IMG/VR virus record: IMGVR_UViG_3300032296_001149 | Location: 1-43,722 of that record | Length of the DNA: 43,722 nt | Origin: a virus | Strand: one strand, 5' to 3' | Part shown: positions 739 to 15,095 of the stretch, piece after piece | Layout: the number at the start of each line of letters is the position of its first letter | Position numbering within the stretch: the first letter of the stretch is position 1 | Program-made: the position numbers and the translations under genes | The notes under the pieces: model-generated | What the model saw: the letters and a program-made list of their open reading frames with translations, nothing else | Databases searched by the model: none | What the model was told of the DNA's origin: nothing

Positions 739-2520
739 TTATATTAGTTTAAATCTATCTAGATAATCTTTTACATCATCAGGGATAGGCTTATATTGTA
801 TCACGTTCTCAGGTAGGTCGTCAACTCGCTTTGGCCTATCTTTAAATGTGTGAACCTCAATTTCTTGATTCATATTTTTTGGGGTAAAACTAATAGCCCC
901 AAATACTGCACCACAAACCGCATCTGCTAAGTCCTTAGATTTTTTGCGGGGATGGTCTACTTTTTTATCATTAATTATCTTAAGTTCACCCATCTCTTCT
1001 AGTAAAAGTGGGATCAGTGGCATTGCAACTCTTTCTTCATAAACCAGCATAGCAAAATCTTCATAGTGTTTTTTCGCAACAGAAACAGTATCAGTTCTAA
1101 TTCCGACAGCCTTTAGTTCTTGTTGAATATCAAATGATTGCCAACGGTCAAATGTAACCATTCCAATATTAAATCCTTGTCTTCTAAGATTAATAATCCA
1201 GTTTTTCACATCACTAAGATTAACTGGACCCTCAACTTTTGGTTCCCACCAAGCAACTGCATCAACAATAACAACTGGGGCAACCTGCTCATAATCTTTT
1301 AAAACCTGAACACTTACCCATTTATCAACATGTGCTATTGCTACGGCACACTTGTCGTGTTTTTGTGCAAGGTCGGCATGGATATAATAAGTTTTATCTG
1401 GGTCTGGTTTAAAAGAAGAATCAAACCTTTTATTGTTGTCTATTGGATTTCTTAAAGACATACATTTTTCTAGTTTATCTCTTTGTTTAAAAAATGCATC
1501 AGATGAATATGTTGGTTTACATGCAAAACGCATCATTGCATCGCCAAGGTCTGTAAAGAAAGATAGTTTAAAGTCTTCAATATTTCTTGTTGGGTTTACT
1601 TCCCATGTAGGTTTTTTAATTGCTAATACCCCTGGAAATTTATATGATTGGATATAATCCTCTTCCCAACTTATTTCAAAAGTATTGTCTGGATTATCTT
1701 CTGGTAAGGCTGGGTTAATTATAAAGGTGTGGTGTTTTTCAATAACTTCTTTTTCTGCAATGACATCATCATATCTTTTAGAAATAAAATCTCCAACGTA
1801 TCTTGGAAAAGATAGCAGTGCAACTTTACCTAAATCTGGGAAACGAGAATCCACAGAGCCACGAAATGCTTTATATATATTTTCTGCTGTTTTACCTTGT
1901 TCATTTCCAGTTCCAACTTCTGATGCAAAACCAGAAATCTCATCAAGTACTGCAAGTATTAAGTTTAAACCTTCATGTGATTCTCTTTCTGAATGTCCAG
2001 AGTAAACTGTTATTGATTTATTAAACTCTATGCTATCTGCTTTAGCATAAAATTTGCCAGCAAACCAAGGGGATGATTCTATTTTTGTTTTAAACCCCTT
2101 GAAAAAAACGTTCTTGGCTTGTTGAGCATTTATAGCAACGTTAATAATATCAATAGCGTCTCCAGTTGGTTTTCCAAAGTATCTGGATGGATCTTTTAGG
2201 CATAATAATTTATAAACTAAATAAGCACACCCAACCGTAGAAGTAAAATCTTTACCACTTCCCTTTCCAAGTTGCAAAATAATTTCATTCTTAGTATATT
2301 TATTATAGTGGGCACTTCCAGCATTGGTCCCCATTAAATTTTCTAAATCTTTTTTATAATAAATCTGACTCATTGCTTCAACAATGTTGTATTGAATTTC
2401 AGATAGTGGTGGTTGATTTAAAAATTTGTCTGACTCAACAAATGTTTTTACATCTACTGGATTTTCTTCAAATATATTATCTTTTAATACTTCAAGAAAA
2501 TCATTGAATGTCGTGGACAA
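739..2520 (-). CDS. terL: Terminase large subunit (ATPase and nuclease)
   Basis: This is the DNA-packaging motor, which pumps DNA into the prohead and cuts it. The 593-aa length is normal for the family. The ATPase half has Walker A GKGSGKDF near residue 85 and Walker B LAVLDE near residue 190. The nuclease half shows an RNase H-like acidic set: HADLAQKHDK near residue 383, VTFDRW near 460 and KSKDLADAV near 530. The start codon is TTG, chosen because GAGGTG sits 7 nt upstream inside the end of the small-subunit gene, which it overlaps by 20 nt. That overlap suggests translational coupling. The portal gene lies at the other end of the window, so terL and portal are separated unless the genome is circularly permuted. 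Confidence 0.95.
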   Translation of the reverse strand: MSTTFNDFLEVLKDNIFEENPVDVKTFVESDKFLNQPPLSEIQYNIVEAMSQIYYKKDLENLMGTNAGSAHYNKYTKNEIILQLGKGSGKDFTSTVGCAYLVYKLLCLKDPSRYFGKPTGDAIDIINVAINAQQAKNVFFKGFKTKIESSPWFAGKFYAKADSIEFNKSITVYSGHSERESHEGLNLILAVLDEISGFASEVGTGNEQGKTAENIYKAFRGSVDSRFPDLGKVALLSFPRYVGDFISKRYDDVIAEKEVIEKHHTFIINPALPEDNPDNTFEISWEEDYIQSYKFPGVLAIKKPTWEVNPTRNIEDFKLSFFTDLGDAMMRFACKPTYSSDAFFKQRDKLEKCMSLRNPIDNNKRFDSSFKPDPDKTYYIHADLAQKHDKCAVAIAHVDKWVSVQVLKDYEQVAPVVIVDAVAWWEPKVEGPVNLSDVKNWIINLRRQGFNIGMVTFDRWQSFDIQQELKAVGIRTDTVSVAKKHYEDFAMLVYEERVAMPLIPLLLEEMGELKIINDKKVDHPRKKSKDLADAVCGAVFGAISFTPKNMNQEIEVHTFKDRPKRVDDLPENVIQYKPIPDDVKDYLDRFKLI

Positions 2521-3037
2521 TCGTAATCACCTCATTTTCTTTGGCAATATCAGATAGCCTTCTCATTATTTTATCTCTAACTTCTGGATGTTCGGTTGCA
2601 ATATCTCTCAATATTTCAACAAGGACCTCCTGTCTTTTTTCTATCTCAACCATTTCTTCAGCCAACTCTTTATTTTCTAACAAACCTGCTTTTTGTAGCA
2701 TTTCAATTCTAGATTTTTCAATATCTACAACAAGTTTAATTGCCTGAGTTTTTGCTGAAAGGTTATTTGTTAAACTAGCCTCATCGATAACTTCATATGC
2801 CTTTGTAATCAATTTGCCATAATGAGCATCCATTGATGCCATTGCTTCTTTTGCACGAGCACGAATAGCATCGTTAGCAGAAGCCATGACTTTCCACTCA
2901 TTAATTAAAGCAACAACACGGGTTCTTGGAATATCTAATTCTTTAGATATTTTGGTTGGATCATTTCCTTTTAGATATTCCTCAACTACTTTATTTACTT
3001 GATCGAGATGCTCAACAATTTTTGATTCATCAGTCAT
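2501..3037 (-). CDS. terS: Terminase small subunit-like protein
   Basis: The 178-aa, almost wholly helical, highly charged protein starts with a helix-turn-helix segment (residues ~25-50, 'TKISKELDIPRTRVVALI'). Two long helical regions rich in Glu and Lys follow, suited to oligomerisation. That architecture, with the gene directly upstream of terL and overlapping it by 20 nt, fits the small terminase subunit that recognises packaging DNA. It also overlaps the preceding gene by 8 nt. The call rests on context and fold type rather than a sequence signature; a different HTH regulator is the alternative. Confidence 0.7.
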   Translation of the reverse strand: MTDESKIVEHLDQVNKVVEEYLKGNDPTKISKELDIPRTRVVALINEWKVMASANDAIRARAKEAMASMDAHYGKLITKAYEVIDEASLTNNLSAKTQAIKLVVDIEKSRIEMLQKAGLLENKELAEEMVEIEKRQEVLVEILRDIATEHPEVRDKIMRRLSDIAKENEVITIVHDIQ

Positions 3038-3362
3038 TTTTTTCTTTAGCCACCTTTAATAAAATTAAATATCCAATTAAATCATCAATATCATTATCTC
3101 CAACCATCTCTGTACCCTTCATCAAACGACTTAATTTATCGTCTATTCTTACATGAAGTTGTTCTATTGGATTGGCTTTGCTAAAAATTCTTACTGGATC
3201 TAAAGCAGAATCCCCATAAGATATATTTTTTTCAATTAACATTTGTGCAATTGCTAAACAATTATTTAAAATTTTAATGCCAGAAGGAGCAGAAAGAGAA
3301 TGCATATATAAATCATTATAAACAAAGTGATCAACGTCTTCGTACACTGGAACTGGCCTCAT
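3030..3362 (-). CDS. Nucleotide modification associated domain 1-like protein
   Basis: The 110-aa protein has a conserved-looking core, 'ISYGDSALDP' (from ~residue 47), then 'RIDDKLSRL' and 'DIDDLIGYLILL' at the C-terminal end. I recognise this pattern from phage proteins annotated as Nmad1 (DUF1599), a family linked by gene neighbourhood to modified nucleotides; its biochemical activity is not established. The ATG at 3362 overlaps the stop of the upstream HTH gene (ATGA). The 3' end overlaps terS, so all are probably co-translated. It could bind nucleotides or act in nucleotide metabolism. No catalytic claim is made. Confidence 0.5.
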   Translation of the reverse strand: MRPVPVYEDVDHFVYNDLYMHSLSAPSGIKILNNCLAIAQMLIEKNISYGDSALDPVRIFSKANPIEQLHVRIDDKLSRLMKGTEMVGDNDIDDLIGYLILLKVAKEKND

Positions 3363-3514
3363 CGTTTTGATTTCCTTAATTCAAATTTAGCAAGGTATAC
3401 GTAAATAGTTTCAACACTAGTTCCACACTCCTTGGCAATATCTTGTGGAGACTTTTTATCCATAACATATCGTTTACGAAGCCAAGTCTCGCTTGTATAT
3501 AGTTTAGCAGCCAT
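3359..3514 (-). CDS. Small HTH DNA-binding protein (51 aa)
   Basis: The short gene fills the gap between the RuvC-like gene and the Nmad1-like gene. It starts with ATG at 3514, four nucleotides after the upstream stop, and its TGA overlaps the next ATG. The product is almost entirely one helix-turn-helix: 'LRKRYVMDKKSPQDIAKECG' is helix plus turn and 'TSVETIYVYLAKF' is the likely recognition helix. Perfect gene packing on both sides and a protein-like composition support it. It probably binds DNA as a small regulator or accessory factor; the target is unknown. Confidence 0.75.
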   Translation of the reverse strand: MAAKLYTSETWLRKRYVMDKKSPQDIAKECGTSVETIYVYLAKFELRKSKR

Positions 3515-3517
3515 AGA

Positions 3518-4069
3518 TTATTTTGTCAACTTTCCCCAGTTATTAATAGCCCAATGACCTATCCCGCAGGCATCTGCAACATCGTTATCTGTTATTTTTT
3601 TATCATATTGAACATTAATAAACTTAATAGTCTTTTCTTTTCTAATTTCACGCTCTTGTGTTTTATACCAAGACTCTGATTTATTGGGATTTTTTTGTCT
3701 CATTAAGATTTTTTCTTCTTTACTAAACCTTTTATTGCCAATATAGTTTTGCCAAGTAATAGGCGAAACTGATCCCATATCCCGCACATTGCAAGACCAC
3801 ATTGCTGCAAGAACTCCTCCTTGTATTAATGCTAAATCTGAGACTGTTTTAGGACTGTTCATAAATACTGTGTGCTCAATTACTACCGCATCAATTTTAT
3901 ATAAGTCAAAAAGTGCTTTAGTTTTAGCATAAGCATCTCCTATTTTTTCATATATTGTATTGCCTTGAAAATTTATTTTTCCAATATACTTTATTTCTTT
4001 ATTATAAAAAATTGCAAAAGCAATATTATTAGTGCTAGCATCAATTGCACAAATCTTTTCAGGTGGCAT
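3518..4069 (-). CDS. RuvC-like Holliday junction resolvase
   Basis: This is a nuclease of the RNase H/RuvC fold, expected to cleave branched DNA during recombination or before packaging. The four acidic catalytic residues are readable: Asp in 'ICAIDAS' near the N-terminus, Glu in 'AVVIEHT', and two Asp in 'DNDVADACGI' near the C-terminus, as in E. coli RuvC. I chose the ATG at 4069 (183 aa) because it puts the first Asp at the usual distance from the start. An alternative TTG at 4105 would add 12 residues and overlap the upstream gene. There is no clear ribosome binding site; a weak -10-like TAATTT lies 7 nt upstream of the ATG. Confidence 0.85.
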   Translation of the reverse strand: MPPEKICAIDASTNNIAFAIFYNKEIKYIGKINFQGNTIYEKIGDAYAKTKALFDLYKIDAVVIEHTVFMNSPKTVSDLALIQGGVLAAMWSCNVRDMGSVSPITWQNYIGNKRFSKEEKILMRQKNPNKSESWYKTQEREIRKEKTIKFINVQYDKKITDNDVADACGIGHWAINNWGKLTK

Positions 4070-4079
4070 ATTGTTTAAA

Positions 4080-4373
4080 TTAATTATTTTTGCTATCACG
4101 GACAATACCTTTTATTTTTTTAAGAACTTTAAAAACGTCTTTATTGTTAATTTTGCAAGCATTACATAAACTATCATCATTATAAATTGATAAAGTTATG
4201 CCACATCCACCTTCACATTTTCTTATTTTGTTTCTTCTTTTTTGTCTTTTGGCAACTGAATATCTTGCTACAATTTTTTCTTTTGTTGCAGCATCCCTAC
4301 ATTTAGCACTGCAGTAAATTTGATATGTTACTGCAGGCCTAAAATCGTTATTACACCAACTACATTGTTTCAC
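4080..4373 (-). CDS. Double zinc-finger protein
   Basis: The 97-aa protein has two Cys4 clusters. The first is C4-x2-C7 with C21-x3-C25 (an FCS-type finger, 'YCSAKC'); the second is C53-x3-C57 with C70-x2-C73. A very basic linker (KRQKRRNKIRK, residues 42-52) joins them, so nucleic-acid binding is likely. The start is GTG at 4373, overlapping the end of the Cas4-like nuclease gene by 14 nt. It sits between two DNA-processing nucleases, suggesting a recombination or replication accessory role; the exact function is not known. Confidence 0.7.
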   Translation of the reverse strand: MKQCSWCNNDFRPAVTYQIYCSAKCRDAATKEKIVARYSVAKRQKRRNKIRKCEGGCGITLSIYNDDSLCNACKINNKDVFKVLKKIKGIVRDSKNN

Positions 4374-5181
4374 TTAATTCTTCTAGAGATGATATTTTAA
4401 TTACCCCATCTCCAGCCTCGTCGCATGCTTTTCTAACTGGGCAACTTTTACAAACCTTAGAATTGTTTCTATAATTTTTAATTGGTAACTGTTTATTTTT
4501 CCAAGCATCGTGAACGGTATTCATCCAATCAAAAGTATCATCGATCCATTTTCTATAATGATCATTTACTTCAATAGGAAATATTAATAAATCGTGATTA
4601 TTTTTATTTTCATAAATAATAATTCCCTTAGATCTTTTAAGAACCTTCATATATATTAAGGTTTGTTCTACGTGATCTAGTTTAGGCTTACCAACTTTTT
4701 TCCTATATTCAAATGCTTCCTGATTTGTTGTTTTTATTTCTCCAACAATTTCTTCATCATTCCAAACTATCATACAATCCCCATAGCCAAAAATTGGTGG
4801 TTGAGAATTTGATACAGTAAACTCTGTTGTATCATTATTTTCTTTATCTTTAAATACCCGAGCAATACCAGAGTCTAACATTGCTTTTTGAATTCTACTA
4901 TGCGATAAAACTCCGTTGCCCATATTGGCTATACTAGAAGCGGTATTGTTAGTTTCAAAAGTTGCCCCCTCAAAAGCAATATACCAATATCGTGGACAAA
5001 CTCCATTGCCATCACTATATGTTAATGATGATGGTGCAAAAGTTTTTTTCTTAGTAAATTTTGGATCTTGTCCCACTAAATATCCGCTATTAATTTTTTC
5101 AACTATTCCAGAGACATCAAAGGCTGGCTTTGGAACACTCTCTGCTTTTATCATAATCTGTTGTAATAAGTTTTTAGTCAT
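4360..5181 (-). CDS. Cas4/RecB-family PD-(D/E)XK nuclease with Fe-S cluster
   Basis: The 273-aa protein has the Cas4/AddB-like arrangement of four cysteines for a 4Fe-4S cluster: C62 in 'GVCPRYW', then C244-x2-C247-x5-C253 in 'CKSCPVRKAC'. The nuclease core has 'GYGDCMIVW' (metal-binding Asp), 'VGEIKTT' (the E-x-K motif) and 'HVEQTLIYM' (the downstream Gln/Tyr motif). Such enzymes resect DNA ends, usually 5'-3', to make single strands for recombination, which fits the RecA gene upstream. There is no CRISPR array here, so this is a phage recombination nuclease rather than an adaptation module. A promoter-like motif precedes it. Confidence 0.88.
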   Translation of the reverse strand: MTKNLLQQIMIKAESVPKPAFDVSGIVEKINSGYLVGQDPKFTKKKTFAPSSLTYSDGNGVCPRYWYIAFEGATFETNNTASSIANMGNGVLSHSRIQKAMLDSGIARVFKDKENNDTTEFTVSNSQPPIFGYGDCMIVWNDEEIVGEIKTTNQEAFEYRKKVGKPKLDHVEQTLIYMKVLKRSKGIIIYENKNNHDLLIFPIEVNDHYRKWIDDTFDWMNTVHDAWKNKQLPIKNYRNNSKVCKSCPVRKACDEAGDGVIKISSLEELSETM

Positions 5182-5203
5182 GGCTCTCTTTTCGTTAGTG
5201 TTA

Positions 5204-5212
5204 AGTATATCA
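5204..5212 (-). promoter_or_regulatory. Extended -10 promoter (TGATATACT)
   Basis: The minus strand reads TGATATACT in the 35-nt gap before the Cas4-like nuclease gene. Transcription would start about 15 nt before its ATG, leaving room for the purine-rich AAAAGAGAG ribosome binding site. The same TGATATAAT-type box recurs in other gaps. Confidence 0.5.
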
Positions 5213-5216
5213 GTTA

Positions 5217-5522
5217 TCAGCGTGTTATGTATTTGAGAGCAGATACTAAATTATTAACTGCTTCTGCTGCTGTGTAGTATATGTTTTTCTTTGCCCTGTT
5301 ATTTTTATCTACGTTAGCCATCCAAGTTGCTCTTAGAGATAATTTTGCAGCAATAGCCTGTAGTCTGACTATTTCAATAGTTGCTACAGTAATTGGAATA
5401 TCTGGCTTTATTATTAATTTAGCAATCATCTCTAAAGAAGTTTTAAGTTCGGCATCATCCATATACTCTGCAATTTCTGCCAAACCATTAATACTCTCAA
5501 GCGTTGTTTTCTCTTGCTCCAT
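5217..5522 (-). CDS. Hypothetical helical protein
   Basis: The 101-aa protein is Ala/Leu/Lys-rich and predicted helical by eye, with no recognised motif; its C-terminal half holds 'NIYYTAAEAVNNLVSAL'. The ATG at 5522 overlaps the preceding oxygenase gene by 26 nt, with a weak GAGAGA ribosome binding site. Position among recombination genes suggests an accessory role in DNA processing, but I do not recognise it. Confidence 0.6.
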   Translation of the reverse strand: MEQEKTTLESINGLAEIAEYMDDAELKTSLEMIAKLIIKPDIPITVATIEIVRLQAIAAKLSLRATWMANVDKNNRAKKNIYYTAAEAVNNLVSALKYITR

Positions 5523-6177
5523 TTGTCTCTCTTTTCAGTTTGTCTAGTTGTTCAAAAAATTGTTTTCTATATTTAATCATTCTAGGCATATTATTATGTT
5601 TTTCAATAATAGACTTTCTTTCTTCTTGCCCCATCTGTTGTTCTGCATACGGCTTATGGTCATATTTGTTAGAAAAATGAAATACGATTACTTCGCATCT
5701 ATCATTTTCTTTTAGTGTAATAGGAGATCTCCAATGTATTCTTTCTGCTGCTTCAAAGACTAATACTTCATTATCTTTTAGAAAAAATTCTTGACCCTCC
5801 ACAACAACAGCCCAATCTATATTACTTGACATTTGATAATCAATACTAACTTTTGTATAATAATTTTCTGTATCCAAATGTGGCGGAAGCATAGGAGAAT
5901 TTCCATTACCATATTTGCCATAATAATCTAAATATTGATAATGAGTTAACTCAAGATCTGGATCATCAACATATTCTAATGCTAAATCTTTTAACTTTTT
6001 AACTATATTTTCTGGAGCCTCAAACTCAATTTGTATTCTAGACATACTCTCTATTGTCATTGGTGCATATCTGCTACTACCAGGACTAAGTAATCTATTT
6101 GTTTCAACTAATTTCTTTAGTTGGTCTTCTTCTTCTTTAGTAAAAAAATTTTTTACAATTCCACAGTTAGTATCCAT
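5497..6177 (-). CDS. 2OG-Fe(II) oxygenase, third of a tandem set
   Basis: The 226-aa protein is predicted to use iron and 2-oxoglutarate to oxidise a substrate. The double-stranded beta-helix iron triad is H100-x-D102 ('PPHLDT') and H148 ('IHWRS'), 46 residues later. An Arg 12 residues after the distal His (R160, 'ENDRCEV') matches the usual 2-oxoglutarate-binding position. The 'HWR' motif and the following 'VIVFHFS' strand are shared with the two upstream paralogues. The family is common in phages and its substrates are mostly unknown. A TATAAT box lies 5 nt before the ATG and no ribosome binding site is seen, so the gene may be leaderless. Of the three copies it keeps the most canonical active site. 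Confidence 0.85.
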   Translation of the reverse strand: MDTNCGIVKNFFTKEEEDQLKKLVETNRLLSPGSSRYAPMTIESMSRIQIEFEAPENIVKKLKDLALEYVDDPDLELTHYQYLDYYGKYGNGNSPMLPPHLDTENYYTKVSIDYQMSSNIDWAVVVEGQEFFLKDNEVLVFEAAERIHWRSPITLKENDRCEVIVFHFSNKYDHKPYAEQQMGQEERKSIIEKHNNMPRMIKYRKQFFEQLDKLKRETNGARENNA

Positions 6178-6182
6178 AATTA

Positions 6183-6188
6183 ATTATA
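6183..6188 (-). promoter_or_regulatory. -10 box TATAAT for a probable leaderless transcript
   Basis: TATAAT lies 5 nt upstream of the ATG at 6177. It is formed partly by the stop codon of the upstream nuclease gene (GTA-TAA-T). No Shine-Dalgarno is present between box and start. Transcription would begin at or next to the start codon. Confidence 0.55.
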
Positions 6189-6474
6189 CCCCACCCACTA
6201 AATCTTCTATAACAGATAATTCAGCCACAATAAGTCTAGTCTTTTTTGGTCCATCACCAAGCACGACAACCAATGCAGGAGATTTATCAATTCCAGATTT
6301 TATAGCATCAGTTGTTATTTTTGCCCAAACTGATTCATTAAGAGTAAAAGATTTTTTAGCCTCTTTAATATCAATGACAAAAGATGACCACGTAGCATCT
6401 CCTTTTTTGTTTCCTCTGCCAGAATTTTTATGTGGGGTTGCATTCATTCTTTTTATTTCATTTTTTTCACTCAT
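6184..6474 (-). CDS. Small PD-(D/E)XK nuclease-like protein (resolvase-like)
   Basis: The 96-aa protein has a compact PD-(D/E)XK-type signature: 'NSGRGNKKGD' followed by 'SSFVIDIKEAKKSF', giving the metal-binding Asp and the D-x-K pair, then a hydrophobic strand 'ALVVVLGD'. Small single-domain proteins with this layout include Hjc-like Holliday junction resolvases and other phage recombination nucleases. The family call is by motif only. The gene overlaps the preceding oxygenase gene by 8 nt (ATGAGTGA), and its stop codon forms part of the -10 box of the next oxygenase gene. Confidence 0.65.
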   Translation of the reverse strand: MSEKNEIKRMNATPHKNSGRGNKKGDATWSSFVIDIKEAKKSFTLNESVWAKITTDAIKSGIDKSPALVVVLGDGPKKTRLIVAELSVIEDLVGGV

Positions 6475-7099
6475 GGCTATACCTTTTTATTGATTGCTTT
6501 AAGTTATTTATTATTTGTATTAAGTTCATAGAAAATCTATTAGAATAATAAACCATATTTTTTTCAATTTCTTCTTTATCTTCCAGTGTTATCAATTTTT
6601 TATCTTCTAAAGAAAAATGACAGAATAACATTTCAATAAAATCTGAATCATTAAACTCTTGATACTCTCTCCAGTGTATTTGATTTGTTCCAGAAAAAGT
6701 GATTGCCTCATTGTCTTTTAATGTAAATGATTTATCTTGTACAACAATAGGCCAATCTATATTACTTCTTAACTGGACGTCTATCGTTACTCTAGATTCT
6801 TTAAATGTATTATCATAATGTGGGGTTAGTGCTGGAAAATCTCCATACTCTTTTGAATATCTTGCAAAGCATATCTCTTCTAATTTAACTCCTTGACCAT
6901 ATATTGTGTTTGCTAAATCTATTACTTTATTTTTTATACTATCTGGAAGATTTATAAACCAAGCCTTTTGAGCATAAATACTAACTATAGAAGTATTTTC
7001 TGTTTGATCCAAATCAATAACAGAATAAAGAGAGTCTAGTTCTTCTTTTGTAAAAACATCCTTGTAAATTTGATTATGAAAAATAAATGGTTTATTCAT
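6467..7099 (-). CDS. 2OG-Fe(II) oxygenase, second of a tandem set
   Basis: This paralogue of both flanking oxygenases keeps the iron triad H94-x-D96 ('TPHYDN') and H142 ('QIHWRE'), 46 residues later as in the third copy. The position equivalent to the 2-oxoglutarate Arg of the third copy is Phe, although the HWR Arg is kept, so cofactor binding may differ. I chose the ATG at 7099 (210 aa), which overlaps the previous stop by 8 nt and has GAGGAG 13 nt upstream. A GTG at 7120 would add seven residues but has no ribosome binding site. An internal TGATATAAT at 7168-7176 could drive it separately. Confidence 0.8.
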   Translation of the reverse strand: MNKPFIFHNQIYKDVFTKEELDSLYSVIDLDQTENTSIVSIYAQKAWFINLPDSIKNKVIDLANTIYGQGVKLEEICFARYSKEYGDFPALTPHYDNTFKESRVTIDVQLRSNIDWPIVVQDKSFTLKDNEAITFSGTNQIHWREYQEFNDSDFIEMLFCHFSLEDKKLITLEDKEEIEKNMVYYSNRFSMNLIQIINNLKQSIKRYSHE

Positions 7100-7760
7100 A
7101 TGAAACTGCACGCTCCTCACTATTTATATTAGTTTCCTGCATTAATATAGATTCTCTTTCTTTCATTATTATATCATGCTGATTGTTTAATTTTTTTTCT
7201 GCTTTATGCTTTAACCAACAAAACATCATGTATATTTCAGAATTTTTGGATAATTTTTTTCTTTCTCTCCAATGCATTTGTTGAGTTCCAGAAAACAAAA
7301 GTGCATCATTATCATTTATATTATATTGCTCACCTTCTACAATAATACCCCAGTCTTCATTGGTTTTTAATTGTATGTCTAAGACAAACATCTCTGTTGG
7401 TCTTGTGTCATAATGTGGAAATAGTTTCACTTCATACCCGTACTCTGGAGAGTATCTTGCAATTGAAAAATTTTCAAGTATCATTTCTTCGCCGATATGT
7501 TTAGTTACTACGTTTTCAATTTTATCTTTAATTTCATTAGTTATTTTTATGTCATCCAGGATTCCTTGGCCTCCCCATTTTTGTACTCTAATTTTGTCCA
7601 ATGGAAAAGATTTAATAGAATTTGCTATATATTCAATTTCTTGATTGTTAAAAATGTTATTTATTATGATTGGTACAAAATCTTGATTAACTACATGATC
7701 TTGAGACTCTCTTAAGTTTTTATATTTTGGAAATTTGTCTAGGGGTGGAAAAGTATGCAT
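7092..7760 (-). CDS. 2OG-Fe(II) oxygenase, first of a tandem set
   Basis: The 222-aa protein has the iron triad H116-x-D118 ('FPHYDT') and H163 ('QMHWRE'). It shares 'FSIARYSPEYG', 'DIQLKTNEDW' and 'LLFSGTQQMHWRE' patterns with the second copy, so the two diverged more recently from each other than from the third. Glu replaces the usual Arg 12 residues after the distal His. It has about 20 extra N-terminal residues compared with the others. A TATAAT box exactly 6 nt before the ATG, with no ribosome binding site, points to a leaderless mRNA. The substrate is unknown; host protein, virion protein or nucleic acid are all possible. Confidence 0.83.
   Translation of the reverse strand: MHTFPPLDKFPKYKNLRESQDHVVNQDFVPIIINNIFNNQEIEYIANSIKSFPLDKIRVQKWGGQGILDDIKITNEIKDKIENVVTKHIGEEMILENFSIARYSPEYGYEVKLFPHYDTRPTEMFVLDIQLKTNEDWGIIVEGEQYNINDNDALLFSGTQQMHWRERKKLSKNSEIYMMFCWLKHKAEKKLNNQHDIIMKERESILMQETNINSEERAVSYE
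7168..7176 (-). promoter_or_regulatory. Possible internal extended -10 (TGATATAAT)
   Basis: The same 9-mer found in intergenic gaps occurs inside the first oxygenase gene, about 70 nt upstream of the second one's start. It encodes the codons of 'HDII', so chance is possible. Confidence 0.3.
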
Positions 7761-7766
7761 AATAAT

Positions 7767-7772
7767 ATTATA
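7767..7772 (-). promoter_or_regulatory. -10 box TATAAT for a probable leaderless transcript
   Basis: TATAAT lies exactly 6 nt before the ATG at 7760, so the predicted +1 is the A of the start codon. As before the third oxygenase gene, the box is built on the upstream gene's final GTA-TAA and is preceded by GGG. No Shine-Dalgarno is present. Confidence 0.6.
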
Positions 7773-7947
7773 CCCTACCCCTTCTTGTATAACTTGTTTG
7801 TTTAACTAATATTACTTTTGATAAATGTTTTTTACTGCACATCCAAGTACACTCTGTAGTTTCTAGCCAAACCCTCATAGAAGTTACTTCTTCTTTGCAA
7901 GTCTGGCATAAAAATTTACCAGGATATACGGAATACTTTTTATCCAA
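7768..7947 (-). CDS. Small zinc-ribbon protein (59 aa)
   Basis: The gene fills the 180-nt gap between recA and the first oxygenase gene. It begins with TTG at 7947, overlapping the recA stop by 8 nt, and ends with TAA at 7768. The product has a Cys4 zinc ribbon, C14-x2-C17 and C33-x3-C37 ('CQTC' and 'CTWMC'), and a basic tail ending RRGRV. The start codon is unusual and the ribosome binding site weak (AAGGTTAAAGAG), but the cysteine pattern and the tight fit between neighbours support a real gene. It may be a small nucleic-acid-binding or transcription accessory factor. Confidence 0.65.
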   Translation of the reverse strand: MDKKYSVYPGKFLCQTCKEEVTSMRVWLETTECTWMCSKKHLSKVILVKQTSYTRRGRV

Positions 7948-8977
7948 ACTCTTTAACCTTGCTTAATATATCTGAGAATAGTTCTTTGTCTTCTCTAACT
8001 TTAGTAATGAAACCATCTCTACCCTGTACTTTAGTTCCATCTGGGAGTATGTACCATGCGCCAGTTCTATTGACTATCCCCATTAACTCTGCTGTATCTA
8101 CTAGATCGGCAACAGTATCAATTCCTACTTTATCCCCTCTAAAATAAAAATCATATTCTCCAGACTGGAAGCCTGGAGATGTTTTTGAAAATTGTAATTC
8201 CCATCTTACTTTACGGCCAAGTTTTTCTTCTATTAATTTATCCCCAACACTTATTTTTCCTTTTATAGCCTGATTGTCAGACTCTGAAGAAAATAATTTA
8301 ATTACAGTGGAAGAATAAAATTTTGTAGCCTGACCACCAGATGGTTGCTGGCTAGTGTACATAGCATTAATATTATTTCTAGACTGAGAAATTAAAATAA
8401 ACAATGTTGGCTTAACTTTATTGTTTGCATAGTTAATCATTTTCCATGCATTGCTAAAATCACGAGACTCTGCTCCAATTTGTTTTGTGTTCTCTAATTG
8501 CTTTAGTTCGCTTGAATCTTTTTCAAAATAGATTGCTGGAAGAAGAGATGTTATAGAATCCACAACAACTAAGTCAACACCCGCATTAATTAAATTTGTT
8601 CCAACATCAACCATTTCATTGATAGTTCTGGCAGAAGAATAGATTAATTTTGAAGTATCTACGCCTAAACTTTTTGCCCAATCTTCAGAATAAGACATTT
8701 CTGCATCAATCCAGGCACAGACCTTACCTTCTTGTTGTGCAAGAGCAATTGTCTGTAGGCATAGGGACGACTTAGCGCTTGATTTACTGCCCCAGATTAA
8801 AACTTGACGACCGTATGGTAAGCCACCATTTAGTGCCTTGTTAAGTCCATGACTTGGTGTTGGTTGATACTCTACACGAATACCTTCTCCATTTGTTAAA
8901 TTTTTTCTAATTCTTGGATCAAGTTGTGCTAATACATCCTCTGTTGTCATTGTCATTTTTATTATTTCCTTTTCCAT
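7940..8977 (-). CDS. recA: RecA-like recombinase
   Basis: The 345-aa strand-exchange ATPase forms filaments on single-stranded DNA. Its ATP site is 'GSKSSAKSS' (residues 63-71), where the second Gly of the usual Walker A is Ala68. Walker B is 'VDLVVVDSITSLL', the L2 DNA-binding loop region is 'QQPSGGQATKFYSS', and the family motif 'CAWIDAEMSYSEDWAKSLGV' follows the P-loop. A second in-frame ATG at 8956 has a better-placed GGAAA element, so the first seven residues are uncertain. The gene starts 3 nt after dnaE. It probably works with the Cas4-like nuclease and resolvases in recombination-dependent replication. Confidence 0.92.
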   Translation of the reverse strand: MEKEIIKMTMTTEDVLAQLDPRIRKNLTNGEGIRVEYQPTPSHGLNKALNGGLPYGRQVLIWGSKSSAKSSLCLQTIALAQQEGKVCAWIDAEMSYSEDWAKSLGVDTSKLIYSSARTINEMVDVGTNLINAGVDLVVVDSITSLLPAIYFEKDSSELKQLENTKQIGAESRDFSNAWKMINYANNKVKPTLFILISQSRNNINAMYTSQQPSGGQATKFYSSTVIKLFSSESDNQAIKGKISVGDKLIEEKLGRKVRWELQFSKTSPGFQSGEYDFYFRGDKVGIDTVADLVDTAELMGIVNRTGAWYILPDGTKVQGRDGFITKVREDKELFSDILSKVKEFG

Positions 8978-8980
8978 ATT

Positions 8981-11900
8981 TTAAATAAGTACATCGTCTA
9001 GTATAACAGTTCCATCTTTTGTCTTTCCAAAAACAAACTTATACGCATTGCCCTCTTTAATATTCATATATGCTTTGGCAAATGCTGTAGGAAATACAAG
9101 CACAGACTTTAATTCCCTAGATGTATTGGCTAAAGTCATTGAAGCCATTTTTTTGCCTTCTTTAGTTGTTCTTGGTTTAAAGGCAACAACAAACATTTCT
9201 TCATCTTTAAAAGGTAACTGCCTATAACTTAAAAATTTAACGAGAGCACTAGAAGATTTTTTTATTTCATCAACAGGAACTGAAGATATAATCCTGTTGT
9301 CATTAGCAAGAACCAAGTAAGTACGACCCGTCTCAATAGTCGTTCCTTCTTCATCAAATATACCAACACTCCCAGTTTTGTCCAAAATTTCAACTCGTGA
9401 CCAACCCTTTCCTCTTTTTATTGACTTTACCATACCCATTAAAATAAAAGAACCTTTTTCTTCAAACTCATCAACCTGTTGAACAAAAGCATGATAATGA
9501 GAAGGAATATTAATATTAAATTCTGGCAGGTTTAAATATTCATATAAATTTTCTTTTATCTGATTATCATTACGAGGATTATCTGGAAAAGTTAATGATC
9601 CAACCGCATTCATTGCTGATAAAGCACGACTATTAACTCCATTGCCTTTTGTAAAAGTAAAATCCTCTACTTCTTTATAAGACTTAAATGGTCTTGCAGC
9701 AATATACTTGTCTGCTATTTTATCTGATATATATTTAATTGCAGTTAAACCAAACCTAATACCCTTGCCCTCAATTTGAAAATCTTTGCCAGAATCATTA
9801 ATGTGTGGCAGTTTAACAGGAATACCAATTCTTTTTGCTTCAATAAGATACTCTGTTCTATTGTCTGGATTTTTTTCATTTTTTAATAAAGCAAACATAA
9901 ACTCTAATGGATAGTAGTACTTTAACCACGCCGTCCAATAAGAGAGCGTAGAATAAGCAACCGCATGACTTTTGTTGAACGAGTATCCCGCATGCGCCTC
10001 AAAGTCATGCCATAAATCACGAGCCTGATTAGGAGTAATATAGGCAGAAGCACCAGCAATAAAACGTTCTTTATAAATATCGAACTCTTTGGCGTCTTTC
10101 TTTTTTCCAATGATTTTTCTAACTTTATCTGCTTCAGACATGGACATTTGTCCAAGGTGTACGCATGCTTGCATAACTTGCTCTTGGTAAAGAATGCAGC
10201 CATATGTATCCTCCGTATAAGGTTTTAATATCTGATGTAAATATGATACAGCCTGTTTTCCATGTTTTCTAGCAACGTAATCTTTACCAATAGTATTCAT
10301 TGCTCCTGGCCTAACAAGAGCATTTGATGCTGCTAATTCATTAAGATTTTTTACTCCCATTTTAACAAGCAGATTTGTGTATGGTGTTGCTTCACATTGA
10401 AAGATTCCTTTTGTAAACCCATCTGAAATCATTTGATAAACATTTGCATCTTCCATGTCTATTTCAAGTGGATTAATTTTAATAAAATGATTTTTTTCAA
10501 TCATTTTGATAGTATCATCTAAAACACTTAAAGTCTTTAATCCAAGCGCATCAATTTTAATTAAACCAATTTTTTCTGCTTCTTCCATATCTACACCGAC
10601 AACTGGAATGCGATTCTCTGATCCTGGAGAAGATCTTGTTTCTAATGGAGCGTATCTAAAAATTGGCTCTTTACTGGTAACAATTCCAGCAGCATGAATT
10701 CCAGTACCTCTAATACGACCACGTAATTGTTCCCCATAAATTTCTACCTCTGGATATTTTTGTCTAAAATCTAAGGTTGATTTAGAACTACAAAAATCGT
10801 CCCAAGTATCTACTGTTTTTAAAATCTTGTTAACATCTGATAATGGAATATTTAAAACTCGTGCAACATCACGTACAATACCTTTTCCAGTAAATTCTAA
10901 AAATGTTGCAATAGAGGCTACGTGTCTATATTGTCTAACAAGATAATCTTTAACTTCTTCTCTTCGAGAATCTTGAATGTCTGTGTCAATATCTGGAAAA
11001 TCATTACGTTCTGGATTAATAAATCGAAAGAACAAAAGCCCATGCTCTATTGGATCAATTTCTGTAATTCCAATCAAATAACAAAGCAATGAGCCAGCAG
11101 ATGATCCACGACCTGGGCCAACTCTAATGCCTTCTTTTTTTGCCCAATTAATCATATTGCTTACTACTAAAAAGTATGGAGCAAATTTTTTATCTCTAAT
11201 AATTGTTAATTCTTCATCTAATCTCTGTTCGTATATATCATTGCCAAGCCAATTACTGTTTAGTCTTTTTTCTTCAAGCCCCGCAAAGGCCAGATTTGCT
11301 AACTCTTGATCAGGATTTTGATATTGAACTGGCAATAAATTTAAATGCTCTTTAATGTCATAATCTTCTATCTTATTCATTACCTCAATGGTTGCATCAA
11401 ACATATCTGTTCTTGTAAATGACTGGTCTTGCATTTCTGATAACATTTCTTCACCACTTAATAAATGAATATTAAATTTATTAAAACTCATTTGTCTATC
11501 TTTTCCATACAAATAATCAAGTCTTGTCATCATATCGTTATACTTTTTAGACTTTTCGTATGTTGCAGTTCTTTCTAACTTTGCATGAGTATTTAAGATT
11601 AACATTAATTCTTGTATTTCTTTTTGACTTTTGTCTACGTGATGACAATCTGGAGTAACAACAATTTTTATATTAAACTCATCTGCCAAATCCATTAAAT
11701 GCATATTTACTTGTTGTGGGTTATGTGGCATGATCTCTATATAGTAATCATCCTTAAATGTATCTTTAAACCATTTAATATATTTTTTGGCTTTTGCAAA
11801 TTCTTCAAGTTCTACTGCTTTTGTAACGATGCCACTTAGGCATGCAGAGGTAACAATAATACCTTCTTTGTATTTTTCTAATGTTTCAAAATCAAACCTT

Positions 11901-12265
11901 GGTTTTCTAAAATATCCTTCGGTCCATGCAATCTCATTAATTTTATTAAGGTTTTCTAAGCCTTGTTTATTCTTGGCTAGAAGAACTATATGGTTATATA
12001 CATTGTCTAATGGATCTTTTCTTTCCGCTCTTTCTCTTTTATCAAAGCGGTCAGCACACATATAGCCTTCTATGCCAAGAATTGGTTTTATACCCTTTTC
12101 TTTTGCAATGCGATAGAACTCACGATGTCCAGATAGAGTGCCATGATCTGTGATTGCCAATGCTGGCATACCGAGACTCACGGCACGATCTAAATATTCT
12201 TCTGGTGTAGCAACACCATCCATTAACGAATAGTGTGTATGTACGTGTAGTCCTACGTAATTCAT
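8981..12265 (-). CDS. dnaE: DNA polymerase III alpha subunit (DnaE type)
   Basis: The 1094-aa protein is the replicative DNA polymerase, a family C enzyme close to the length of bacterial DnaE. It starts with an intact-looking PHP domain ('HVHTHYSLMDG', 'AITDHG', 'GIEGY', 'VVTPDCHH'), which in DnaE enzymes can supply metal-dependent proofreading. The palm has 'GPGRGSSAGSLLCYLIG', the catalytic 'PDIDTD' near residue 425 and the third acid in 'IKIDALG' near residue 573. The C-terminus has an OB-fold segment ('ILMGMVKSIKRGKGWSRVEI'). No clamp, clamp loader or epsilon gene is visible, so it likely uses host factors. The gene begins 1 nt after the single-strand binding protein gene. Confidence 0.96.
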   Translation of the reverse strand: MNYVGLHVHTHYSLMDGVATPEEYLDRAVSLGMPALAITDHGTLSGHREFYRIAKEKGIKPILGIEGYMCADRFDKRERAERKDPLDNVYNHIVLLAKNKQGLENLNKINEIAWTEGYFRKPRFDFETLEKYKEGIIVTSACLSGIVTKAVELEEFAKAKKYIKWFKDTFKDDYYIEIMPHNPQQVNMHLMDLADEFNIKIVVTPDCHHVDKSQKEIQELMLILNTHAKLERTATYEKSKKYNDMMTRLDYLYGKDRQMSFNKFNIHLLSGEEMLSEMQDQSFTRTDMFDATIEVMNKIEDYDIKEHLNLLPVQYQNPDQELANLAFAGLEEKRLNSNWLGNDIYEQRLDEELTIIRDKKFAPYFLVVSNMINWAKKEGIRVGPGRGSSAGSLLCYLIGITEIDPIEHGLLFFRFINPERNDFPDIDTDIQDSRREEVKDYLVRQYRHVASIATFLEFTGKGIVRDVARVLNIPLSDVNKILKTVDTWDDFCSSKSTLDFRQKYPEVEIYGEQLRGRIRGTGIHAAGIVTSKEPIFRYAPLETRSSPGSENRIPVVGVDMEEAEKIGLIKIDALGLKTLSVLDDTIKMIEKNHFIKINPLEIDMEDANVYQMISDGFTKGIFQCEATPYTNLLVKMGVKNLNELAASNALVRPGAMNTIGKDYVARKHGKQAVSYLHQILKPYTEDTYGCILYQEQVMQACVHLGQMSMSEADKVRKIIGKKKDAKEFDIYKERFIAGASAYITPNQARDLWHDFEAHAGYSFNKSHAVAYSTLSYWTAWLKYYYPLEFMFALLKNEKNPDNRTEYLIEAKRIGIPVKLPHINDSGKDFQIEGKGIRFGLTAIKYISDKIADKYIAARPFKSYKEVEDFTFTKGNGVNSRALSAMNAVGSLTFPDNPRNDNQIKENLYEYLNLPEFNINIPSHYHAFVQQVDEFEEKGSFILMGMVKSIKRGKGWSRVEILDKTGSVGIFDEEGTTIETGRTYLVLANDNRIISSVPVDEIKKSSSALVKFLSYRQLPFKDEEMFVVAFKPRTTKEGKKMASMTLANTSRELKSVLVFPTAFAKAYMNIKEGNAYKFVFGKTKDGTVILDDVLI

Positions 12266-12266
12266 A

Positions 12267-12917
12267 CTACCAATCAGTATTCGTTGCTGAAGTTACTGAT
12301 GGCGAATCAAAGCCAAGATAAAAATTCTCTTGCTCTGCATATGGAATACGACGTAAAGCCATTTCAAGTGGGTAAGGTGTTACGCCTTCCCAATTAAACG
12401 GTTCTTTATCTGGAGCAGACGGAATCATAGTATAACTAGTTTCTGTACTTTGTCCATTACGCTTAAGTTTCCAAGTTAGATTTGAGATGCTTCCTGTTTC
12501 TAAAGCAAACTCACGAATTGTATTAAATGATGATTGCTTGCTAACACCCATTGACCAAATTGCCACATATGGTGGTTCAATGCCATCATCTACTAAAACG
12601 TTGCAATAAAAACGAAGGCGTGCTCTCCAGCCAGCCTTTGGATCTTTTCTGTGCATTTCTTCTGCCCAGTCACGACCCTCTGAGTCCATTGTGTCTACTG
12701 CTTTACGCTTATAGTCTTTTGGATTAACATGTTCTTTTACAACAAGAGCAAGACCACGATCTGCATTGTAACTTGCAGAATCCTCATCTAGTTCTTCTAT
12801 AAAACGAATTTTAACTGATTGTCCGTCAGCCAACTTAAGCCAACGAACTTTTGGTGCATCTGATTTTGGTTTGTCGAGCAGGGCGTTGATGTTCTTTAAT
12901 CCCTTAATAACGCTCAT
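12267..12917 (-). CDS. Single-stranded DNA-binding protein-like (gp32-type)
   Basis: The 216-aa protein lies directly between primase and polymerase genes. It has a central part rich in aromatics and basic residues ('ARLRFYCNVLVDDG', 'NLTWKLKRNG') and an acidic/polar C-terminus ending TNTDW, the type of tail many single-strand binding proteins use for partner contacts. The family assignment is by context and general pattern. The ATG at 12917 has AAAGGAG 6 nt upstream, in a 26-nt gap that may also hold a weak -10 (TAAAAT). Confidence 0.65.
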   Translation of the reverse strand: MSVIKGLKNINALLDKPKSDAPKVRWLKLADGQSVKIRFIEELDEDSASYNADRGLALVVKEHVNPKDYKRKAVDTMDSEGRDWAEEMHRKDPKAGWRARLRFYCNVLVDDGIEPPYVAIWSMGVSKQSSFNTIREFALETGSISNLTWKLKRNGQSTETSYTMIPSAPDKEPFNWEGVTPYPLEMALRRIPYAEQENFYLGFDSPSVTSATNTDW

Positions 12918-12943
12918 AGTTTTCTCCTTTGTGTTTTGTATAT

Positions 12944-13876
12944 TTATTTTAGCATAAGTGATATAGATTTGTCAAACTGAAACTCTAAATTTCTGATTGC
13001 ACTATCATCCATATCACCTATGTCTTTATATTCTGTATTAAGTTGTATTACGGAAACACGAGATTTTAGTTTTTCAACTATTCTTTCTTTCATGTTTCCG
13101 CCTGCCTCATCATTATCCGCAATAACAATAATGTTATTGAAATATTTTTGAAGCAAATCTATTTGTGTATTTGATACATTGGCCCCCAGAGTAGCAACTG
13201 CTGAAAATCCAACTTGGTCTAATCTAATTGCATCAAAAGAAGATTCTACCACATAAACCTTTTCTGATGCTTTTACTCTATGAAGATTAAAAAGTGTTTT
13301 TGCTTTTGGAAGTTTTGGAGTATTTTTAAAATCTTTTCCTTCAATTGATCTTCCAACAAAACCAACGGCTAAACCATCTGGTGAATGAACTGGAATAGTG
13401 ACCATATCTTGTTTTTCTGAATATCCTAAATTAAACTTAACAACTGAGTCTTTTGTTATTCTTCTTCTTTCATAATAAGACATGGCCCTAGGGGAAATTA
13501 ATGCTTGATTGTTTAATCTTTTAATAATTAACTCATCAAAAGCCACATAGTCTGGAACATCTATAAGTGCCTTATTTACAAATTGTTCAATATCTGTATC
13601 TTTTCCTTTACTTGCAATAAATCTGACTGTTTCAAAATATGTTCTATTTGTACAATGCATAACTAACTCAACTAGATCTTTAGTTTCTTGACAGGAAAAA
13701 CAAAAGAATGTTCCTCTTGTCTTTGATACTTCTCCTGCTGGGGTTCTAAAATTATTATGATATGGGCAAAATATCATAAAGTCATTATCCATTTCTGACT
13801 CTATATCAATGCCAGAACCATTTAATACTCTTCTAACCTGATCTTCATTATATAAATCTATTTTATTAATTGCCAT
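12944..13876 (-). CDS. DNA primase (DnaG-like)
   Basis: The 310-aa protein makes RNA primers for replication. Its N-terminal CHC2 zinc ribbon is C37-x2-H40 and C59-x2-C62. The Toprim fold follows, with 'YVVESSFDAIRLDQ' (catalytic Glu) and 'VIADNDEAGG' (D-x-D). The helicase-binding domain of bacterial DnaG is missing, as is common in phage enzymes. I chose the ATG at 13876, which has GAGGA 6 nt upstream and overlaps the helicase stop by 11 nt. The longer frame from 13918 would need a 53-nt overlap. Confidence 0.93.
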   Translation of the reverse strand: MAINKIDLYNEDQVRRVLNGSGIDIESEMDNDFMIFCPYHNNFRTPAGEVSKTRGTFFCFSCQETKDLVELVMHCTNRTYFETVRFIASKGKDTDIEQFVNKALIDVPDYVAFDELIIKRLNNQALISPRAMSYYERRRITKDSVVKFNLGYSEKQDMVTIPVHSPDGLAVGFVGRSIEGKDFKNTPKLPKAKTLFNLHRVKASEKVYVVESSFDAIRLDQVGFSAVATLGANVSNTQIDLLQKYFNNIIVIADNDEAGGNMKERIVEKLKSRVSVIQLNTEYKDIGDMDDSAIRNLEFQFDKSISLMLK

Positions 13877-15095
13877 TTGAATCCTCAAAATCTTTGTATC
13901 TGTAATATCCTTTATCAAAATCTGCTTGAACTAAAAACTCTCCCATAAAACCATTTCTGTTTTTTCTAAAAGCACATTCAATAATATCACTATTTGCTGC
14001 ACGACCTAACGCCAAGACCCAATCTGCATCATAAGCAATTTGTCTAGACCAAGCGGTTTGACCTAGTGTTGGAACTGTATTAAGATTTGTAACATCGTCT
14101 GGGGTGGCTGATGAGATAGCAATAATTGGAACTTCTTCACCAATTGCCATTAGTTTAAGTTCTCTTGAAAGATTTTTCATTCTTACTGTCTCATTATCAG
14201 ATTTTTGATTTGGTGACATTAATTGTAAATAATCAACAATAACAAAGTCTGGTTTATACTGATCAATCTTTCCACGAACAACAGAAGGATTTACTTCTCC
14301 CCCGCTATCATTTGAAATAATATGAAACTCTGGTTTTCCAGCCAAGTTCTTTTCATGCCATGATTTTAGCATGTCCATTTCAATTTCACCATTGCTTATT
14401 TTTCTATGTGACCAAACACCTTGCCCCATAATTGTATATACACGATTTCTAACTTCTACTTCCGACATTTCTAAACTTATTATTAATGGAGACTTACCTT
14501 GCTTCCATGCTTGTACCGCAAAATAAAGCGCAAGCCAAGATTTGCCAATTCCTGGGTATGCAAGAAAAACACCAAGTTGTCCTGGCATAATTCCAGACGG
14601 GAGATAATTGTCAAATCCTGGCAAACCTGTTTTAATTCCAACTGCGCCCAACTCTTTCATTTTTTGAACATTAGTAAAGTATGCAATAGCAGAATCTAAA
14701 TCAGTAGCATCAATATCTCTAATTGCTGCAACATTCTTTTTTAACTCTGATGTTTTATTAATTAAATCTGTTAACGCTATATCTCCATTACCAACTTGAA
14801 CATCTGTTGCAGCAGATCTTAAAATATCTTTTAAACTATCATTTAAATATTCTGACTGTAATTCTTCTAAATGGTACTTAGTTGCACCAACATCTGGTAC
14901 TGTTTGAAAATCTCTAAACTTTTCAACAACTAATGATTCGGGTGGAATTGCATTGTTTGCCTCATAGTATTTTCTTATAAACAACCATAAATCTGTATGA
15001 GTTCTTAAAAGATTTTCAACATTGGCTTGTAAGAGAACATGCATTTGTTTATCTTTAAGAAGTGCTGTTATAAGTTTAGATTCTGTATTATTCAC
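13866..15095 (-). CDS. dnaB: Replicative DNA helicase (DnaB-like)
   Basis: The 409-aa hexameric helicase unwinds DNA at the fork. The RecA-type motor domain has Walker A 'YPGIGKSW' near residue 180, Walker B 'FVIVDYLQLMSP', and an arginine-rich C-terminal motif ('IIECAFRKNRNG'). The N-terminal ~130 residues are helical, as in DnaB. It overlaps the upstream gene by 8 nt and the primase by 11 nt, so helicase and primase are made in a coupled way. Confidence 0.93.
   Translation of the reverse strand: MNNTESKLITALLKDKQMHVLLQANVENLLRTHTDLWLFIRKYYEANNAIPPESLVVEKFRDFQTVPDVGATKYHLEELQSEYLNDSLKDILRSAATDVQVGNGDIALTDLINKTSELKKNVAAIRDIDATDLDSAIAYFTNVQKMKELGAVGIKTGLPGFDNYLPSGIMPGQLGVFLAYPGIGKSWLALYFAVQAWKQGKSPLIISLEMSEVEVRNRVYTIMGQGVWSHRKISNGEIEMDMLKSWHEKNLAGKPEFHIISNDSGGEVNPSVVRGKIDQYKPDFVIVDYLQLMSPNQKSDNETVRMKNLSRELKLMAIGEEVPIIAISSATPDDVTNLNTVPTLGQTAWSRQIAYDADWVLALGRAANSDIIECAFRKNRNGFMGEFLVQADFDKGYYRYKDFEDSNGN

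Follow-up and report, generated by a model that had tools for sequence, protein, structure and literature searches.

Variable arrays of putative Fe(II)/2-oxoglutarate oxygenases in a cargo slot of a phage recombination operon

Introduction

Why a phage recombination operon should carry three related oxygenase-like genes in close succession, and on which molecules their products would act, are questions raised by IMG/VR virus record IMGVR_UViG_3300032296_001149. The record was analyzed over its whole stretch of 43,722 nucleotides (43.7 kb, 33.7% GC), which is called the window below. The three genes, all on the minus strand, are oxA (7092..7760, 222 aa), oxB (6467..7120, 217 aa) and oxC (5497..6177, 226 aa); their products, denoted A, B and C, resemble oxygenases that use Fe(II) and 2-oxoglutarate (2OG). 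An earlier reading of these letters, referred to below as the original prediction, had already described the three open reading frames as paralogues.

In related phages the site occupied by these genes holds 0 to 5 domains of the same oxygenase family, which are sometimes fused. The chances appear about even that A, B and C are active Fe(II)/2OG oxygenases of an exchangeable array that act most likely on proteins rather than on DNA; from fold and motif we infer both catalysis and cofactor use.

According to PMC3037559, cyanomyovirus genomes carry sets of 2OG oxygenase genes of unknown function, several per genome as in the window. Unlike those sets, the window array occupies a fixed slot in an actinophage-type recombination operon and varies between 0 and 5 copies among relatives. 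The fold and the phage 2OG oxygenase sets are known, while the variable array, its slot and the relabelling of a family annotated as ferrochelatase are new; the titles and abstract openings obtained in literature searches describe neither such arrays or slot nor a relabelling of the viral ferrochelatase.

Results

Paralogy, active-site motif and selection

When A was used as a tblastn query within the window, it found B (32% identity, E 5.1e-26) and C (26% identity, E 8.9e-16), values that exclude chance similarity and confirm the paralogy. All three proteins contain an HxD...HWR motif, composed of H116, D118, H163 and R165 in A, H101, D103, H149 and R151 in B, and H100, D102, H148 and R150 in C, which is the most conserved copy. 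The number of residues between the Asp and the distal His is 44 in A and 45 in B, as originally counted, and 45 rather than 46 in C. The residue at position +12 from the distal His is Glu in A, Phe in B and Arg (R160) in C, also as originally read.

The motif was followed through the domains of the window and of related contigs, 173 distinct sequences in all, of which 172 are complete and one is cut by a contig end. The two His residues, the Asp, an invariant Trp and the Arg at +2 are kept in 172/172 complete domains. The C5 carboxylate of 2OG is usually anchored by a basic residue about 10 positions after the distal His. The +12 column holds Arg in 18 and Lys in 11 of the 173 rows, the commonest residues being Phe (66) and Tyr (29), and in rows from marine relatives it is preceded by a two-residue gap. 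Since this position varies across the family, it cannot serve all members as the 2OG anchor; candidates for that role are Arg+2 and Y86, a Tyr kept in all 46 rows of alignment A1 (46 of 48 distinct domains).

Comparison of the window with its close relative L004 gave dN/dS values of 0.118 for A, 0.073 for B and 0.033 for C, compared with 0.021 for RecA, i.e., purifying selection acts on all three copies. The original prediction had taken the absence of Arg+12 from A and B as a possible sign of relaxed cofactor use. This proposal is not supported: the position is variable family-wide, the iron ligands and Arg+2 are retained throughout, and the copies without Arg+12 are themselves under purifying selection, which equally speaks against an outright loss of cofactor use.

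General sequence libraries gave little. The Pfam/NCBIfam matches of A and of the product of the gene between oxB and oxC all lie below the cut-off, and B and C have none; PF13640 (2OG-FeII_Oxy_3) matched none of A, B and C at E<=1. A search of PDB sequences with A1 returned only non-significant matches to prolyl-4-hydroxylases (E 0.13-0.14), in one of which (E 0.13) the Tyr and the HxD line up. The same search with alignment A3 gave no match, and a genome scan with A2 found no relative.

Fold

AlphaFold2 models built on the family alignments reached pLDDT values of 90.5 for C and 91.2 for A, and both can be assigned with confidence to the double-stranded beta-helix of the 2OG-Fe(II) oxygenase fold, as had been predicted; the assignment covers the two modelled proteins. 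In VIA-align the best match of the C model was 6n1f (Z 14.7, rmsd 2.4, 157 residues aligned), while the A model matched SnoN (Z 14.4, rmsd 3.6, 168 aligned) and 6n1f (Z 13.6). In Foldseek searches PHD2 and ALKBH5 ranked high for C, and ALKBH6, ABH8, ABH2, AlkB and ALKBH5 for A. Because both PHD2 and AlkB-type proteins rank high, no substrate can be deduced from the fold.

The PHROG 2954 family and its ferrochelatase label

The only library family matched by all three proteins is PHROG 2954, annotated as ferrochelatase (E 5.6e-10 for A, 2.6e-7 for B, 3.5e-4 for C). An hhalign comparison of A/B/C with the marine members of this family gave a probability of 98.7 (E 3.6e-16) over 151 columns that include the HxD and the HWR, compared with 0.15 for a RecA control. 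The marine alignment (A6) combines 12 of the 14 distinct marine domains with two domains of Synechococcus phage S-SM1. The two His, the Asp and Arg+2 are kept in 14/14 marine rows. The BFVD model of an S-SM1 "ferrochelatase" matches C with a Foldseek probability of 1.00 (E 1.2e-9). In S-SM1 two genes annotated as ferrochelatase and homologous to the window oxygenases are found at L291:5160-6276; these members, SSM1_060 and SSM1_061, sit in a run of 2OG oxygenases. The Pfam ferrochelatase family gave no match at E<=1 in SSM1_060, SSM1_061 and three marine relatives, and PF00762 matched 0/7 phage records (S-SM1 and six others) at E<=10, while 10/14 control genomes were positive. Taken at the level of sequence and motif, the label of PHROG 2954 is very probably wrong and the family would be one of oxygenases.

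The label is widespread. Relatives of one marine member were found at 160 places in 156 phage records, and among the 60 of these records that were listed, 52 carry the annotation ferrochelatase, three are named 2OG or oxoglutarate dioxygenase and five only hypothetical protein. Because some GenBank relatives already bear the dioxygenase name, the relabelling is not wholly new. Members of PHROG 2954/3531 from cyanophages and pelagiphages (S-SM1; T4-like GC 615) are homologous to the window genes and differ from the window array in that they are shorter, mostly occupy one place per record, and belong to other phages with other surroundings.

Two published interpretations are affected. In PMC9599517, pelagiphage genes are interpreted as ferrochelatases partnered with 2OG oxygenases; these genes likely belong to the PHROG 2954-type family, since a "putative ferrochelatase" of pelagiphage HTVC033P is a member. 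PMC11561400 describes the phrog2954 "ferrochelatase" as enriched in seasonal viruses. The findings of both should probably be re-read as concerning pairs of oxygenases, which, if true, removes the supposed heme link of an ocean-virome family (that of PMC11561400, and probably the same one in PMC9599517). A second label in S-SM1 also deserves attention: SSM1_053 (L291:1248-1772) is annotated as a DNA endonuclease (PHROG 2297), yet matches PF13640 over the cut-off, and its endonuclease label may spread via PHROGs.

Variation of the array and history of the copies

Searches with A, with B, with C and with an A/B alignment (for the latter, the best 80 of 334) supplied relatives of the array, and the sample comprises 84 contigs including the window, one locus per contig, which were chosen for carrying the oxygenase family. 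As far as each contig reaches, these share the backbone RecA-HJR-g101-Cas4-ZnF-RuvC-TerL, where HJR denotes a Holliday-junction-resolvase-like protein, g101 a small conserved protein and ZnF a zinc-finger-like gene, with the oxygenases placed around HJR. Three contigs (L074, L075, L093) have an additional oxygenase between DnaE and RecA. The RecA-g101 interval is complete in 73 contigs, which hold one domain in 12 cases, two in 17, three in 25, four in 17 and five in 2; in 25 of the 73, oxygenases are found between RecA and HJR.

The composition also changes. The contig L026 (and L025, as far as it reaches) has one C-type copy; L019, L020, L022 and L023 have B and C; the window and L004 have A, B and C; and L005 and L009 have A, a fused A'-B and C. 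Fused two-domain proteins occur in 9/73 complete arrays. Eight of these join an A-type to a B-type domain, several of them in near-identical contigs, and the ninth (L073) joins another type to a B-like domain. The heteromers envisaged in the original prediction thus find a hint in the A-type plus B-type fusions, which would concern an association of A with B only.

In trees of 48 and of 173 domains, A, B and C form separate clades that each hold many phages; both trees carry long-branch warnings, and the larger is a quick tree with SH-aLRT values only. This distribution implies that the founding duplications predate the phages. A common ancestry of A, B and C by duplication, as originally proposed, is supported by the tblastn matches and the trees, and the phylogeny would date the duplications as old; a recent local duplication within this operon was considered and rejected in view of the separate multi-phage clades. 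More recent duplications can be seen inside the A clade, where L009/L011 have an A' and each of L060, L063 and L067 has two copies of the A type, and also in L099, between copies 2 and 3.

The slot in other phages

Two Streptomyces phages of the Stanwilliamsviridae, Karimac and Daubenski, share the order DnaE-RecA-HJR-g101-Cas4-ZnF-RuvC-TerL and the orthologous genes with the window, and differ from it in that the stretches read contain no window-family oxygenase and no orthologue of a 110-aa gene found near the window terminase. The window proteins are 53% (TerL) and 47% (RecA) identical to those of Stanwilliamsviridae-type Streptomyces phages, and the replication-recombination-terminase block at 742-15396 is colinear with that of the same phages. 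Judged by these similarities and the colinearity, the window is probably from an uncultivated low-GC actinophage.

A less biased census was obtained from loci picked by RecA alone, where the RecA scans kept the best 80 of 592 and the best 80 of 584. Among the best 80 near the window RecA, 73 loci include both RecA and Cas4; 17 of these carry 1-4 family domains and 56 none, and three of the seven partial loci also hold family domains. Among the best 80 near the Karimac RecA, 78 are complete, and 57 of these show no match to three profiles in the RecA-Cas4 interval. The remainder consist of 17 loci with a second oxygenase family, two with this family and a PHROG 24927 gene, one with the PHROG 24927 gene alone and one with a window-family oxygenase; at two further loci a match to the window family, weak in one case, lies past the terminase. 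In total, 20 of the 78 have an oxygenase of either family in the interval. A phage that lacks the family at the slot may still carry it in another place, as illustrated by G022, where the slot (L154) has none and two copies are found elsewhere.

The second family matches PF13640 over the cut-off in the three members tested. A further alignment, A7, consists of 19 ORFs picked by hand out of a cluster of 26. In hhalign, PF13640 and A/B/C align with a probability of 55.8 over 38 N-terminal columns only, so that, as far as the sequences tell, the PF13640 oxygenases of the slot are not detectably of the same family as A/B/C. These phage enzymes, of the prolyl-4-hydroxylase-like type, share the HxD...H arrangement with A/B/C, and presumably also the fold class; they use the same slot on the Karimac side and are found in tandem elsewhere. 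Other cargo comprises a Na/H exchanger, a methyltransferase, a DUF6065 protein and, recognized by eye, an SSB-like protein; the exchanger (L158:2148-3329) and the methyltransferase (L186:9162-9761) were seen in loci that lack the family. The slot thus accepts cargo of a general kind, and oxygenases are frequent among its contents.

The operon in the window

The block is transcribed on the minus strand in the order RecA, oxA, oxB, HJR, oxC, g101, Cas4-like, zinc-finger-like, RuvC, 110-aa, 178-aa and TerL. The genes oxA and oxB overlap by 29 bases, oxB and HJR by 8 and oxC and g101 by 26, and a gap of 6 bases separates HJR from oxC, i.e., from oxA to g101 the genes overlap or nearly abut, as expected for a single operon.

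HJR (6184..6474, 96 aa) was correctly predicted as a small nuclease gene between oxB and oxC. Its assignment is based on both a match to PHROG 2002 (E 2e-19) and the D26...D35-x-K37-E38 motif, invariant in an alignment of 15 sequences and fitting the PD-(D/E)XK signature; a PDB sequence search with HJR returned a single non-significant, unrelated match (E 0.15). The gene g101 (5217..5522; PHROG 9818, function unknown) adjoins the array. The Karimac orthologues of HJR and g101 match with E 1.5e-26 and 2.9e-23, respectively.

On the upstream side the slot is bordered by a RecA/UvsX-like recombinase (7940..8977; the tblastn identity given above is to a Streptomyces phage RecA), preceded in the backbone by a DnaE-like DNA polymerase III alpha subunit (8981..12265; profile match to Karimac DnaE). 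Downstream are the flanking backbone genes for a Cas4-like exonuclease (4360..5181; PHROG 1706, E 8.6e-44; PHROG 1990, "Cas4-domain exonuclease", E 4e-13) and a RuvC-like resolvase (3518..4105; PHROG 159, E 5.5e-22). The zinc-finger-like gene between these two was recognized by eye and by a weak, below-cut-off NinG match. The conserved block ends downstream with the large terminase TerL (739..2520), whose tblastn match to the terminases of Streptomyces phages extends over 593 aa.

The 110-aa gene (3030..3362; PHROG 1485, function unknown) is kept near the terminase in many relatives. It had been called Nmad1-like, a name for which we found no basis: no Pfam/NCBIfam family matches it at E<=1, and a search of the window with DUF1599 (PF07659), the Nmad1 family, gave 0 matches at E<=10, where the control was positive in only 3/14 genomes.

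Discussion

The observations turn three odd genes into a system-level pattern, i.e., a slot that holds 0-5 oxygenase domains or a second oxygenase family. In the mechanism proposed here, each enzyme would bind iron through the HxD...H motif and convert 2OG and O2 to succinate, CO2 and a hydroxylated product, a chemistry suggested by the fold and the motif. Each of A, B and C would hydroxylate its own target. The separate clades would reflect an ancient divergence of the copies, and A and B may act as a pair, as they are sometimes fused. The array would be an accessory set, located in a cargo slot around the Holliday-junction-resolvase gene of a conserved recombination operon, that gains, loses and swaps copies for oxygenases of other families between phages, as would fit enzymes under changing selection. 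The likeliest targets would be virion tail or fiber proteins, or a host protein. Viral prolyl and lysyl hydroxylases are found in chlorella virus PBCV-1 and Mimivirus; although enzymes of eukaryotic viruses, they would serve as the working analogy for an action on virion proteins.

For a protein substrate the chances are close to even at best, and the assignment is of low confidence. The relevant Pfam scans cover 20 long records, picked mainly for length and therefore non-random (12 family-in-slot loci and 8 from the RecA sets). In three of them, all Karimac-side phages (G018, G019 and G024), tandem PF13640 genes adjoin an FFPP-repeat gene, which we infer to be a tail gene, and these three records also have the most PF13640 matches of the 20 (7, 12 and 8, respectively). 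G018 and G019 also have a collagen-like gene next to these, with a Pfam match over the cut-off in the former and under it in the latter. A bacterial relative of the family in Candidatus Angelobacter (L301:4839-5690) has a weak PqqD-like C-terminus (Pfam E 0.0069, below the cut-off), a domain of the peptide-binding type. Together, the FFPP neighbors and the PqqD-like stretch hint at protein substrates. The proteins encoded beside tandem PF13640 genes, whose FFPP-type repeats are long (L296:1247-2080, L297:8892-9794, L298:8203-9246), are possible hydroxylation substrates; near those of L296 and L297, genes resembling DUF6065 are present together with a collagen-like gene.

Several findings weigh against this assignment. 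The FFPP cases involve PF13640 enzymes rather than the A/B/C family, and all three are on the Karimac side; in the FFPP-rich G024 no match to collagen was obtained. Across the 20 records, oxygenases are not significantly linked to collagen-like genes (6/16 within 3.5 kb, where a block-rotation null has a mean of 3.21 and reaches this value in 1321/20000 cases), and the window fragment has no collagen-like run, one proline stretch only. The array sits among DNA-metabolism genes, and AlkB-type demethylases are among the fold neighbors of A and C. The isoelectric points of A, B and C (5.2-5.5) differ from those of HJR (9.5) and RuvC (9.3), but the DNA-binding RecA (6.1) and DnaE (6.3) are acidic too, and the charge of A/B/C therefore says little. 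Concerning catalysis, position +12 varies and Arg+2 is a candidate 2OG anchor. A hemH match in the bacterial relative L301 runs counter to the relabelling, at chance level (E 0.093; 12.1 bits vs a cut-off of 124.6).

An alternative, which we regard as unlikely, is that the oxygenases act on nucleic acid, either on bases of the phage DNA or in AlkB-like repair of alkylated DNA. It would explain the operon position next to RecA, HJR, Cas4 and RuvC, it agrees with the high Foldseek ranks of ALKBH5 for C and of ALKBH6, ABH8, ABH2 and AlkB for A, and acidic proteins present no obstacle to it, given RecA and DnaE. Yet the position is weak evidence, as the slot also accepts the Na/H exchanger, the methyltransferase, the DUF6065 protein and the SSB-like protein, and the fold matches prolyl hydroxylases equally well as AlkB. 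AlkB-type demethylases have a second C-terminal Arg motif. A C5-methyltransferase or thymidylate-synthase-type partner was missing from all 20 chosen records (PF00145 and PF00303 in 0/20 at E<=0.001; the window fragment was not searched and the records may be incomplete), while the controls were positive in 10 and 9 of 14 genomes, respectively; a TET-like or hydroxymethyl-pyrimidine pathway would accordingly appear weakened. DNA repair is among the roles proposed for cyanophage 2OG oxygenases in PMC3037559, which also proposes 2OG-related roles.

The latter roles would fit enzymes that act on a small molecule (a free amino acid, sugar or lipid) or that tune the host 2OG/succinate balance as metabolic cargo. 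The close structural matches include SnoN, HalB, BesD and HygX, enzymes of free amino acids and natural products, and the slot holds further cargo of a metabolic type, but the array lacks a biosynthetic partner gene, and divergent paralogues side by side would suit several targets better than one 2OG pool; this explanation is quite unlikely in our view. That A, B and C are non-enzymatic metal-binding proteins or inactive relics of duplication is very improbable. The usual basic residue near +12 is missing in two of the three copies, as such relics might show, but the iron ligands and Arg+2 are invariant in the complete domains, each copy is under purifying selection and the clades persist across phages; the low dN/dS and the invariant ligands argue against relics.

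Returning to protein hydroxylation, a broader proposal is that of a swappable phage system with virion or host targets, in which each paralogue would recognize its own motif and to which the misfiled viral ferrochelatases would also belong. We consider this extension improbable; if true, such a system would be a post-translational counterpart to phage DNA hypermodification. The targets of hydroxylation would be testable with small proteins. The gene neighborhoods of the bacterial relatives L310 and L318 gave no functional clue other than SapC, whose gene (L318:4054-5375; PF07277 over the cut-off) overlaps the start of the frame of the bacterial family member.

The genomic investment in such enzymes can be large: G006 and G008 (~100-116 kb) have 13 oxygenase matches each, composed of 5 PF13640 and 8 window-family matches. 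An accessory region of the former (L292, G006:C1:1-20000) contains four PF13640 matches and two family oxygenases together with a trypsin-like protease, a JmjC/cupin-type protein, Methyltransf_24 proteins (one just under the cut-off) and an NTP transferase.

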